Assembly: GCA_025455015.1 (NCBI GenBank)
Contig: JALONI010000023.1
Span: 1-39,302, forward strand
Origin: Cyclobacteriaceae bacterium
Lineage (GTDB): Bacteria; Bacteroidota; Bacteroidia; Cytophagales; Cyclobacteriaceae
Length of the DNA stretch: 39,302 nucleotides
Direction of reading: 5' to 3'
Numbering within the stretch: the stretch's first letter is position 1; each line of letters opens with the position of its first letter. The notes beneath the pieces are model-generated. The model was not told the origin of the DNA and made no database searches. It saw nothing but the letters and a program-made list of their open reading frames with translations. Of this stretch, positions 31,195 through 34,581 are shown piece after piece. A program made the position numbers and the translations under genes.

Positions 31195-31207
31195 CGCTAC
31201 CAAACAC

Positions 31208-31240
31208 TTGTAAGTGGAAAGTAAAAAAATGATAAGTTTG
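31208..31240 (+). promoter_or_regulatory. Promoter of the leucine operon leader
   Basis: TTG at 31208-31210 and TAAGTTTG at 31233-31240 are 22 bp apart. The -7 box is an exact match to TAnnTTTG; the spacing is at the long end of what is known in Bacteroidota. The transcript should start near 31246, giving a leader of about 150 nt before leuC. Confidence 0.65.
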
Positions 31241-31271
31241 TTTGGACGGTACAGGCCGAAGGCAGATATTC

Positions 31272-31328
31272 GTGCTGTTGTTCATCGTTTACCTAGATGA
31301 CGAACAACTTCTAAACCTAAACCTGTAG
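31272..31328 (+). CDS. Leucine-rich leader peptide of leuCDBA (leuL-like)
   Basis: A short frame starting with GTG at 31272 encodes [18 protein letters not shown] and stops with TAG at 31326-31328. Seven of 18 codons are leucine (CTG, TTG, CTA, CTT, CTA, CTA, CTG), three of them CTA; isoleucine and valine codons are also present. An AAGG stretch lies 9 bp upstream. The stop codon touches the 5' arm of the terminator hairpin at 31329-31369. Analogous leader peptides regulate leu operons of Proteobacteria by ribosome stalling when leucine is scarce; homology by descent is not claimed. Within the leader a second, 7-bp hairpin (GTTGTTC 31277-31283 with GAACAAC 31302-31308) covers most of the frame and could act as a pause hairpin. 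The start codon is the least certain point. Confidence 0.6.
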
Positions 31329-31369
31329 AAATCGCCTCGTTCCTCCCGTGAACGGGGCGATTTTGTTTT
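31329..31369 (+). terminator. Attenuator-type terminator in the leuC leader
   Basis: AAATCGCCTCGTTC (31329-31342) pairs over 14 bp with GAACGGGGCGATTT (31350-31363), with a single T-G wobble and a 7-nt loop, followed by TGTTTT. It lies between the leader peptide stop and leuC, so unless it is prevented from folding it should stop transcription before leuC. Confidence 0.8.
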
Positions 31370-31398
31370 ATCAGGGCCGTAACAAACTAACGATTGTT

Positions 31399-32817
31399 GT
31401 GAGTCGACAAAAACCAAAAACGATCTTCGAAAAAATCTGGGACGCGCATGTAGTAACACAACGCGATGGCTATCCCGATGCGGTATTTATTGACCGTCAT
31501 TTCATTCATGAAGTAACCAGCCCCCAGGCATTTGACGGATTGCGCAAACGCGGCATACCTGTGTTTAACACCAAGCGCACCACCGCCACGGCCGATCACA
31601 ACGTGCCCACCAAAGACCAACATCTCCCCATCAAAGAGGCGCTAAGCCGCCATCAGGTCGAAACCTTACGCAAGAACTGTCAGGAATTTGGGATCGAGTT
31701 ATTTGATCTGGGTCATCCCTATCAGGGCATTGTGCATATCATCGGGCCCGAGCTGGGCCTCACGTTGCCCGGCATGACCATTGTGTGTGGCGATAGTCAT
31801 ACCTCCACCCACGGAGCCTTTGGCACAGTAGCCTTTGGCATAGGCACCAGCGAAGTAGAGCAAGTGCTGGCTACGCAATGTATTTTACAGTACAAGCCCA
31901 AAACCATGAAGATTGAAATCAATGGCGCACTGGGCAAAGGAGTGGTCAGCAAAGACATTATTTTGTACATCATCTCCCAACTATCCGCCAGCGGAGCCAC
32001 CGGGTATTTTGTGGAGTATGCGGGCGATGCCATCCGTTCATTGTCGATGGAGGCACGCATGACCATTTGCAACATGAGCATTGAAATGGGTGCACGCGGG
32101 GGGTTGATTGCTCCGGATGAAACTACTTTTGCGTACCTCCGCGGCCGGAAATTTGCCCCCTCCGGTGCCGCGCTGGAGCGCGCCATCGCCCAGTGGCGAA
32201 AGCTGCCCTCGGATGACGGAGCCGCGTACGATGCGGTGCTCACGTTTGATGCATCAGCCATCGCCCCCATGATTACCTACGGCACCAACCCCGGCATGGG
32301 CATGCGCGTCACGGACCGCATACCAACAGCCGAAGAGCTCAACGAACTCAACGAGCGGGTATCGTTCAAAAAATCACTCGAGTACATGGGGCTGGAGGCG
32401 GGCTCGCGGTTATTGGGCAAGCCGGTCGACTATGTGTTTATCGGCAGTTGTACCAACGCGCGGATTGAAGACCTGCGCCAAGTGGCTTCGCTGGTGAAAG
32501 GAAAAAAGAAGGCGGAAGGGGTGGAAGTATGGGTGATACCCGGAAGCAAACAAGTGGAAGCACAAGCGCGGCAGGAGGGGCTCGATAAAATTTTTGAAGC
32601 GGCCGGCTTTGAGTTGCGCAGCCCGGGGTGCTCGGCTTGCCTGGGCATGAACGAGGACAAGGTGCCCCCCGGCAAGTACTGCATCAGCACCAGCAACCGA
32701 AATTTTGAAGGACGACAAGGGCCTAAGAGCCGCACGTTTTTGGCCAGTCCGCTGAGCGCGGCCGCAGCCGCCATCACCGGCAAGGTGACGGATGTGCGGC
32801 AATGGATGGATAATTGA
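31399..32817 (+). CDS. leuC: 3-isopropylmalate dehydratase large subunit
   Basis: A 472-residue subunit of isopropylmalate isomerase, which turns 2- into 3-isopropylmalate in leucine synthesis. It is of the aconitase family, with a 4Fe-4S cluster held by the Cys of [13 protein letters not shown] and the two of [11 protein letters not shown]; also present are [18 protein letters not shown] and [12 protein letters not shown]. Start: GTG at 31399 gives [19 protein letters not shown], matching the family's N-terminus and length. An upstream GTG at 31348 lies inside the terminator hairpin and is unlikely. First gene of leuC-leuD-leuB-leuA, downstream of a leader with an attenuator. Confidence 0.95.
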
Positions 32818-32861
32818 CGTGGGAGCGATACGGGTACCCATCAGGAAAACGAATGCACAGC

Positions 32862-33470
32862 ATGAAAGAGAAATTTAATGTGTTGACATCTACGGCTGTT
32901 CCGCTGCCCATCGAAAACATCGATACGGATCAGATCATCCCTGCGCGGTTCTTGAAGGCCACCACGCGTGAAGGGTTTGGCGACAACTTGTTTCGCGATT
33001 GGCGATACGATGCGAACAACACGCCCATCCCCGGCTTTGTGTTGAACGGGGGCACGTACGGAGGCCAGATTCTGGTGGCCGGTAAAAACTTTGGCTGTGG
33101 TAGCAGCCGCGAGCATGCGGCCTGGGCCATTTACGACTATGGTTTTCGCGCGGTGGTGTCCAGCTTCTTTGCCGACATTTTCAAAAACAACGCCTTGAAT
33201 AACGGCCTGCTACCGGTAGTCGTGTCAGATGATTTTTTGCGACACCTGATTGCGGTGGTCGAAAAATCGCCCGCCACGTCACTCACAATCGATTTGCCCC
33301 GCCAGGCGATTTCTGCCGGTAGCCGATCGGAGTCATTTGAGATCAACGCGTACAAGAAAGAGTGCCTGTTAAATGGCTATGATGATATTGACTATTTGCT
33401 AAGCCTGCATACAGCGATACGGGCCTTTGACTTGGTGCAGGCAGAAACCGGGAGTAGCCAACACGGATAG
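32862..33470 (+). CDS. leuD: 3-isopropylmalate dehydratase small subunit
   Basis: A 202-residue swivel domain partner of LeuC. It shows [16 protein letters not shown] near the N-terminus and the [21 protein letters not shown] motif, which lines the active site. The start [16 protein letters not shown] at 32862 gives the standard length; a Met three codons earlier (32853) is possible, and a TTG overlapping the leuC stop is less so. The gap from leuC is about 44 bp. Confidence 0.94.
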
Positions 33471-33483
33471 GAGGTATTGAATC

Positions 33484-34581
33484 ATGAATAAAAAAATTGT
33501 CATTCTGCCCGGAGACGGCATCGGCAAGGAAGTAACGGCCGAGGGAAAGCGTGTGCTGCAAAAAGTAGCTGACGTCTTTGATCACTCTTTTGTGTTTGAG
33601 GAAGCCCAAATCGGGCACGAAGCCATTGAGGCTACCGGCAACCCGCTACCGGATGAGTCGCTCATGAAGTTGAAAGACTGCGATGCCATTTTATTTGGTG
33701 CCGTGGGCCATCCAAAATACGATAACGACCCGACCTTGAAGGTACGGCCCGAACAAGGCCTGCTGAAAATGCGCAAAGAACTCGGGCTGTACGCCAATCT
33801 GCGCCCCATCAAACTGTTTGATGAACTGCTGGGAGCCTCCAGCATCAAACCGGAGATTTTGAAGGGATCGGACATCTTGTTTTTTCGGGAGCTTACCGGG
33901 GATGTGTACTTTGGGGAGAAAGGAAAGAAAGACGATGGCAACACGGCCTATGATCTGATGATCTACCAGCGGTTTGAGATTGAGCGCATCGCCCACAAGG
34001 CGTTTGCGGCCGCCCGCACACGAAAGAAGAAAGTGGTGAGTGTAGATAAAGCCAACGTGCTGGAGAGCTCGCGCCTGTGGCGCCAGGTGGTTACCGAAGT
34101 GGGACAACACTACCCGGATGTGCAACTGGAGCATCAGTTTGTGGATGCAGCCGCCATGAAACTCATTCAAAACCCGCGCAGCTTCGATGTGGTGCTCACC
34201 GGCAATCTTTTTGGTGACATCCTCACAGACGAGGCCTCGCAGATCGCAGGGTCCATGGGCATGCTGGCCTCGGCCTCGGTGGGCGATACGGTGGGGTTGT
34301 ACGAGCCCATCCACGGAAGTGCCCATGACATCACCGGCCAGGGCATTGCCAATCCGTTGGCCTCCATTCTGTCGGCTGCCCTCTTGCTTGATATTTCGTT
34401 TGGATGGAAGGAAGAAAGTGAGATGATCATCCGTGCCGTGGAACAGGCATTGAAAAAGGGATATCGCACGCGCGACATCCGAGATGCGGCCACGGACGAA
34501 AAGAAAATTTTGAGCACGAGCGAGATGGGGCGAGTGGTGCGGGACGAAATGGAACGCATCGCCAAAACCCAATGGGCATAA
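33484..34581 (+). CDS. leuB: 3-isopropylmalate dehydrogenase
   Basis: A 365-residue NAD-dependent enzyme that oxidises and decarboxylates 3-isopropylmalate to 2-oxoisocaproate. Family signatures include the N-terminal LPGDGIGKEVT, substrate-binding RPEQGLLKMRKELGLYANLRP, RELTGDVYFG, VDKANVLESSRLWR, and the metal site NLFGDILTDEASQIAGSMGMLASAS with the NAD-binding GSAHDITGQGIANPLA. It starts 13 bp after leuD and ends 32 bp before leuA. The protein is complete and acts in the cytoplasm. Confidence 0.96.
   Translation: MNKKIVILPGDGIGKEVTAEGKRVLQKVADVFDHSFVFEEAQIGHEAIEATGNPLPDESLMKLKDCDAILFGAVGHPKYDNDPTLKVRPEQGLLKMRKELGLYANLRPIKLFDELLGASSIKPEILKGSDILFFRELTGDVYFGEKGKKDDGNTAYDLMIYQRFEIERIAHKAFAAARTRKKKVVSVDKANVLESSRLWRQVVTEVGQHYPDVQLEHQFVDAAAMKLIQNPRSFDVVLTGNLFGDILTDEASQIAGSMGMLASASVGDTVGLYEPIHGSAHDITGQGIANPLASILSAALLLDISFGWKEESEMIIRAVEQALKKGYRTRDIRDAATDEKKILSTSEMGRVVRDEMERIAKTQWA

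Follow-up and report, generated by a model that had tools for sequence, protein, structure and literature searches.

Genes and leader elements upstream of leuC

The window, i.e., the whole stretch of 39,302 nucleotides that was analyzed, originates from a Chryseolinea-like bacterium and carries the genes leuC, leuD, leuB and leuA, which were confirmed by NCBIfam profiles and are listed together with the leader elements in Table 1. The encoded LeuA apparently lacks its C-terminal part, which we take to be the regulatory part; feedback control may rest on transcription. Two tRNAs were the only hits in the window when it was scanned with Rfam at gathering thresholds.

Table 1. Genes and leader features at leuCDBA and two further loci of the same genome. 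Positions refer to the window unless a locus is named.
Feature	Position	Strand	Remarks
Upstream palindromic box copy, CAAACACTTGTAAG	31201..31214	+	Centre at -69.5 from predicted start
TTG of -33 element	31242..31244	+	20 bp 5' of -7 box
Conserved -7 box, GATATTCG	31265..31272	+	CATCTTCG and CATATTTG in relatives; consensus TAnnTTTG
Leu-rich frame, GTG 31272 to TAG 31326-31328	31272..31328	+	Start codon begins inside -7 box; not conserved
Predicted transcription start (+1)	31277	+	Inferred from position of -7 box
5'-terminal stem-loop from predicted +1	31277..31308	+	Fold prediction
Linker, TTCTAAACCTAAACCTG	31309..31325	+	Three of the seven Leu codons; CTAAACCTAAACC-like repeats in some relatives
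Terminator stem-loop, 14 bp	31329..31363	+	Arms 31329-31342/31350-31363; read directly, fold, covariation
T tract, TTTTGTTTT	31361..31369	+	Read directly
17-bp spacer, T tract to box	31370..31386	+	Near-constant length and variable sequence in relatives
Downstream box copy, CTAACGATTGTTGT	31387..31400	+	Overlaps leuC start codon
leuC, 3-isopropylmalate dehydratase large subunit	31399..32817	+	TIGR00170; start GTG 31399
leuD (start inferred)	32859..33470	+	TIGR00171
leuB	33484..34581	+	TIGR00169
leuA, 387 aa	34614..35777	+	NF002086; profile matched to position 384 of 516
ilvE operon leader: Ile/Val/Leu leader peptide, terminator, box	L181:2218-2014	-	Same genome, contig C17
Perfect box, CTAACAATTGTTAG	L183:2019-2032		Same genome, contig C115; about 50-65 bp before bcat2

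For the comparison with related bacteria, LeuC searches gave matches in 76 of 77 genomes and, at 1e-150, in 53 of the 62 genomes from the window's genus. Contigs of named genomes were searched as well, and the nearest records included Cyclobacteriaceae MAGs, Chryseolinea lacunae and Chryseosolibacter indicus. From 64 close leuC leaders eight duplicates were dropped, leaving 56 distinct leaders: 51 derive from the window's genus and five from named relatives (L101-L105) which perhaps belong to other genera. Promoter-based counts refer to the 46 of 55 leaders with a promoter score of at least 16, with automatic calls that are visibly wrong in some leaders (e.g., L016, L022, L030, L177 and perhaps L008). 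The automatic hairpin finder chose wrong hairpins in L031, L033 and L064, and the spacing figures were derived separately.

The 14-bp stem, the T tract and the leuC start codon can be read directly from the sequence as originally predicted. A terminator was found in 55 of the 56 distinct leu leaders; the sole exception, L037 from genome G016, has neither terminator nor box. Chryseolinea lacunae (L102), a culturable relative, is among the carriers of terminator and box. Folding of positions 31233-31401 yielded a z-score of -4.5 and that of positions 31277-31376 a z-score of -6.95, and in both cases none of 200 shuffles was as stable. The stems of 52 of the 55 leaders were usable and comprise 26 distinct leu sequences; of the eight core pairs, six are formed by every one of these 26 and the outer two by 24. 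Covariation, which had been proposed as a check of the stem, was found among the relatives; it is two-sided, and GC, CG and TA pairs replace one another at a given position. At least six T within 10 nt past the GGGC landmark of the 3' arm are present in 53 of 55 leu and in all 30 ilv leaders (see below). These comparisons indicate that the terminator before leuCDBA is real and conserved and that its stem is under selection; with an intrinsic terminator conserved between promoter and leuC, premature termination of leuCDBA is plausible. Among leuC leaders further away, any terminator-like hairpin was seen in 12 of 86.

The original prediction had also pointed to a TAAGTTTG box, which is present at 31233-31240, but the conserved promoter lies elsewhere, with its -7 box at 31265-31272. 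A -7 box of the pattern [CTG]AT[CA]TT[CT]G is common to many leu leaders, and a TTG is located 19-21 bp 5' of it in 27 of 55 leaders (26 at 20 bp, one at 19 bp) and in none of the other 28. This -7 box agrees with TAnnTTTG, the consensus for Bacteroidota, which is located at -12 to -5 according to PMC9723704; in the window, transcription is therefore predicted to start at about 31277. The GTG at 31272 (position -5) would consequently not be transcribed. In 24 of the 46 leu leaders with a clear promoter the terminator stem begins at most 20 nt from the predicted start. At positions 31277-31325, a stem-loop that begins with the predicted +1 precedes CTAAACCTAAACC repeats, and by eye 14 other leaders are arranged similarly. 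Individual folds give the 5' stem, though a consensus fold across 15 leaders gave none.

The leucine-rich frame and the leader peptide at ilvE

A leader-peptide attenuator had been proposed for this locus on the basis of a frame of 18 codons with seven Leu codons. This frame is present in the window, but is not conserved in the relatives. Among the 55 leaders with the hairpin, the window alone has a frame with at least five Leu codons in the predicted transcript, and this frame needs a TTG start; in the frame originally described only the TTG at 31278 remains. Relatives that keep the hairpin but no Leu-rich frame are what the original prediction had named as its refutation. Predicted-transcript frames of at least five codons that end near the stem occur in 16 of the 55 leu leaders, and two of the 16 comprise at least four Leu codons (six in the window, four in L101). 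With any start within 110 nt, at least four Leu codons are reached in 11 of 55 leaders and seven in the window only. For a shuffle test any start codon in 31233-31328 was admitted, whereby the window's best frame contains eight Leu codons; at least seven were reached by 13 and eight by two of 3000 dinucleotide shuffles, for a frame that was chosen post hoc. Three of the seven Leu codons derive from CTAAAC repeats, which are kept in the relatives as sequence, not as reading frame.

Pairing of the leader with the 5' arm of the terminator, as required of an antiterminator, reached -9 kcal/mol or better in none of 46 leu leaders, and its median was -1.9 kcal/mol versus -2.7 kcal/mol for shuffled sequences. 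A pause hairpin at 31277-31308, suggested originally as an alternative, is predicted by folding. What endures of the proposed attenuator is the conserved terminator, with no sign of control by ribosomes stalling at Leu codons in the leaders compared; judged from these comparisons, the leuCDBA terminator does not appear to be under the control of a leucine-rich mini-peptide.

The ilvE operon, the leader of which served as positive control, came to light because the same palindromic box precedes it. Loci from 30 of 56 matching genomes constituted the ilv set. A frame with at least seven Ile/Val/Leu codons was detected in 29 of the 30 ilv leaders; an example from the genome of the window is MKFFSESFLNTSLISISRVLVIISVILLPHKRGW. 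As these tests of leu and ilv frames were unlike in span and codon set, a single rule (within 170 nt) was applied to both: 29 of 30 ilv versus two of 55 leu leaders have at least ten Ile/Val/Leu codons, 29 of 30 versus 19 of 55 at least seven, and ten of 30 versus two of 55 at least seven codons of Leu alone. Pairing of the ilv leaders with the 5' arm, determined on a fixed stretch of 75 nt that is often longer than the leu stretch, has a median of -12.5 kcal/mol versus -7.9 kcal/mol for shuffled sequences and reaches -9 kcal/mol or better in 27 of 30 leaders. Frame and pairing together suggest that the own genome uses leader-peptide attenuation, and that this attenuator seems to be located at ilvE, not at leu. 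The ilvE of genome G016, from which the exceptional leader L037 derives, is the most diverged full-length ilvE (52% identity).

The palindromic box and its spacing from the terminator

The leu and ilv leaders share a palindromic box of about CTAAC-N4-GTTAG. With a searched range of about 20-44 nt, the downstream box was located 28 nt past the 3'-arm GGGC in 47 of the 55 leu leaders and 26-29 nt past it in 54, the landmark being absent in one. At ilv the distance is 28 nt in 28 of 30 leaders and 27 nt in the other two. The middle 13 nt of the spacer have a mean pairwise identity of 34% among 47 distinct leu and of 42% among 27 distinct ilv sequences. This combination of near-constant spacing and drifting sequence points to a spacer which is kept in length, not in sequence. 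The distance from box to start codon at leu extends from 3 to 61 nt.

For the copy upstream of the promoter, 42 leaders were scored: its start precedes that of the -7 box by 58-65 bp in 39 of them and by 85-138 bp in the other three. In all five divergent ilvE-leuC regions examined, each of the two genes has a box and another lies in between, and one further box match of equal score was found in region L177. Distances between boxes range from 139 to 218 bp, and no clear helical phase indicative of DNA looping was seen (vector length 0.29 for 51 leaders at 10.5 bp, 0.26 for 29 distinct values). The downstream leu boxes are imperfect palindromes, the right half of which is usually GTTGT. A function of the box as RNA stem was set aside, because copies occur 5' of promoters. 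The box displays features of roadblock operators, namely a palindrome 3' of the predicted start and a site common to leu, ilv and bcat2 (described below), and is likely a protein-binding DNA site.

With the pattern TTTTN11-19AACTAACNNTTGTT, 55 of 62 genomes of the genus were matched, and the reversed control gave 23 matches in 15 genomes. By coordinates, most of the matches belong to leuC or ilvE; the match G004:C544 belongs to an ilvE-like gene (L313), and the matches G079:C265, G090:C83 and G090:C310 were left without an assigned gene. Twelve other matches contain AACTAAC followed by CC, TC or CT and then TTGTT. The two of these twelve that were inspected (L314 and L315) precede a small lipoprotein-like gene and have no such hairpin in the stretch inspected. 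The sequence AACTAACCCTTGTTAG is located before the small lipoprotein-like gene in L314, L315, L251, L255 and L259, and in some genomes a pheA-like gene (named by eye) lies on the opposite side. Within genomes of other genera of the same family, the pattern matched in five of 37; three of these five (G092, G138 and G292, representing two sister genera) carry the unit in front of leuC as well as of ilvE, and the usual spacing is kept within 1 nt by eye. In leuC leaders further away the box CTAACNNTTGTT was found in 0 of 86. By these numbers the unit is lineage-specific.

A further gene preceded by the box encodes a second branched-chain aminotransferase (bcat2, NF009897). Of 30 loci 28 were used, two partial ones being omitted, and one was too short, so that 27 were scored; genomes having only a paralogue of about 50% identity are outside this set. 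The box was found upstream of bcat2 in all 27 scored genomes, in 26 as perfect CTAAC-N4-GTTAG, and in 0 of 27 control stretches. By eye it is located just 5' of a -7-like element, which suggests repression. Single box-like sites in the own genome are not enriched over the reversed control (55 versus 105 and 38 versus 115 matches), and only recurrent, positioned sites were therefore taken into account. Neighbors of such single sites, named by eye, include serine-pathway-like, MntR-like and gltB-like (one mismatch) genes as well as a gene for a small lipoprotein, opposite which lies a pheA-like gene.

With respect to the putative regulator, two genes for Lrp/AsnC regulators in the own genome were considered and rejected, since no convincing box was found at their starts. 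The seven PF00440 matches of the own genome were compared with those of G016, G292 and G092. For two of the TetR genes, L317 and L320, the counterparts in both sister genera are 53-63% identical and those in G016 46-47%. Because these weaker counterparts occur in a genome that has no unit at leuC, L317 and L320 are weak candidates for TetR regulators of leu and ilv. According to the accessible portion of PMC6651687, PaaR of Thermus thermophilus (TTHA0973, TetR family) has the site CNAACGNNCGTTNG, which, compared by eye, is similar to the leu/ilv box, not identical with it. This likeness makes a TetR-like type our best guess for the putative regulator; PaaR itself regulates phenylacetate genes, and a link to branched-chain amino acids was not found in this analysis. 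A TetR gene beside paaA (TIGR02156) in the own genome (L318:917-1790) has boxes related to the leu/ilv box, and at its counterparts in G092 and G292 paaA is immediately preceded by a perfect box. In another family (L302, L303, L304, L307 and L308), AACTAAC-N4-GTTAG lies before a paaA relative.

A model of leuCDBA control and its relation to known systems

The related sequences have in common a conserved terminator, boxes at near-fixed spacing from it and a box before bcat2, and have no conserved Leu frame. From these data we infer an operator-gated terminator at leuCDBA, with a protein that would bind the boxes, repress, stall the polymerase and sense a signal. We regard it as the best explanation, with belief and doubt in about equal balance. 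Transcription would start at about 31277 and run into the intrinsic terminator some 90 nt further on at most. The boxes near -70 and past the terminator would be bound by a regulator that acts as a dimer and governs the synthesis of branched-chain amino acids. On an occupied downstream box, presumably under an ample supply of these amino acids, the bound protein would act as a roadblock and hold the active site of RNA polymerase on the T tract, whereupon the hairpin would form and the transcript would be released; with an empty box the polymerase would pass more often. The box begins 17 bp ahead of an active site at the end of the T tract, and the front edge of the polymerase would reach about as far. 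By this general geometry, a bound dimer would probably hold the polymerase on the termination site. The leu operon would then need neither a leader peptide nor an alternative RNA fold, and at ilvE the terminator-box unit would be combined with the Ile/Val/Leu leader peptide.

The coupling of terminator and operator, our main claim, is deduced from conservation, and start, termination and binding are predictions. Slightly more tentative still is the full formulation as protein-gated attenuation, in which a repressor parks the polymerase on the termination site with no leader peptide or RNA switch and a leader-peptide attenuator is stacked onto the unit at ilvE. The box near -70 is not typical for a repressor and counts against the operator-gated terminator, as do the imperfect downstream palindromes, the missing enrichment of single sites and the restriction of the unit to its lineage. 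Moreover, the leu and ilv units are alike in stem sequence too, and part of the fixed spacing may thus reflect shared descent.

This shared likeness also favors a reasonable rival, plain repression plus an ordinary terminator, in which the boxes act on initiation by steric hindrance or looping, the terminator is constitutive and partial, and the spacing reflects inheritance, not function. In its favor, the promoter has a box on either side, and the bcat2 box lies just 5' of a -7-like element where no such hairpin was noted by eye. This rival leaves unexplained, however, that the spacer length is kept despite a mean identity of 34-42% while neighboring distances vary, and distances of 139-218 bp between boxes without clear helical phase do not suit looping; we consider this rival rather unlikely. 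A further possibility is that the hairpin serves mainly as a 5' stem stabilizing the leu mRNA, the box being an unrelated operator. The short distance of at most 20 nt between predicted start and stem in 24 of 46 leaders and the further stem at +1 in the window would agree with such a function, but the T tract is kept (53 of 55 leu, 30 of 30 ilv), and at ilv the terminator-box unit stands behind a long leader, which makes a stabilizing stem improbable.

The downstream box might also act in the mRNA, either as the site of an RNA-binding protein or in translation. In both operons it is part of the 5' UTR, and in the window it overlaps the start codon of leuC; its copies 5' of promoters, in the middle of divergent operon pairs and ahead of bcat2, together with a varying distance to the start codon, render this a shade more improbable than the stabilizing stem. 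Ribosome-mediated leucine attenuation as first proposed, perhaps newly evolved in the lineage of the window, would be in line with the seven Leu codons in 18, which are rare in shuffles, with the clear leader peptide at ilvE in the own genome, and with clues to leader-peptide attenuation reported in the accessible portion of a study on Flavobacterium psychrophilum (PMC9723704). A start codon at -5 of the conserved promoter, a frame kept in one of 55 leaders and the lack of a good antiterminator speak against it, so that we regard it as the least probable of these explanations and very improbable indeed. Instead of such attenuation we favor the operator-gated terminator, and it is this reading that is compared with known systems in the following.

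Leader-peptide attenuators with an intrinsic terminator between promoter and genes are known from leuL and ilv of Escherichia coli. The leu operon described here has in common with E. coli leuL an intrinsic terminator between promoter and leu genes, but differs from leuL and ilv in having no conserved leader peptide and no good antiterminator, both of which are found at the own ilvE. Roadblocking and intrinsic termination are usually treated apart. If our model is true, the unit is a natural example of how a repressor can stall the polymerase and thereby bring about its release, and it explains one regulator for leu and ilv in a lineage of Bacteroidota with a leader peptide at ilv only. The findings also suggest that promoter position and conservation should be checked before a Leu-rich frame before a leu terminator is called an attenuator.

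The attenuation in F. psychrophilum concerns amino acid operons of the same phylum, and the accessible portion of the report (PMC9723704) names no leu operon. Among the titles and abstract openings of the roadblock literature, in which few subscription journals are represented, a terminator at fixed distance from an operator was not found. The DNA-bound repressors CodY, CcpA, PurR and LacI stop elongating polymerase (PMC10310618, PMC4132739), and as in the leu model, where this is predicted, a DNA-bound regulator 3' of the start halts the polymerase. Unlike the leu unit, these roadblocks are described, in the available parts of both articles, without an intrinsic terminator at fixed distance before the operator. 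At trpRBA of Chlamydia trachomatis, binding of YtgR to its operator promotes the termination of transcripts from upstream (PMC6504234). As far as the available part of that article extends, this system differs from the leu unit in being iron-dependent and intergenic, with no fixed terminator-operator unit described, and resembles the leu model in that a regulator promotes termination at an operator of an amino acid operon.
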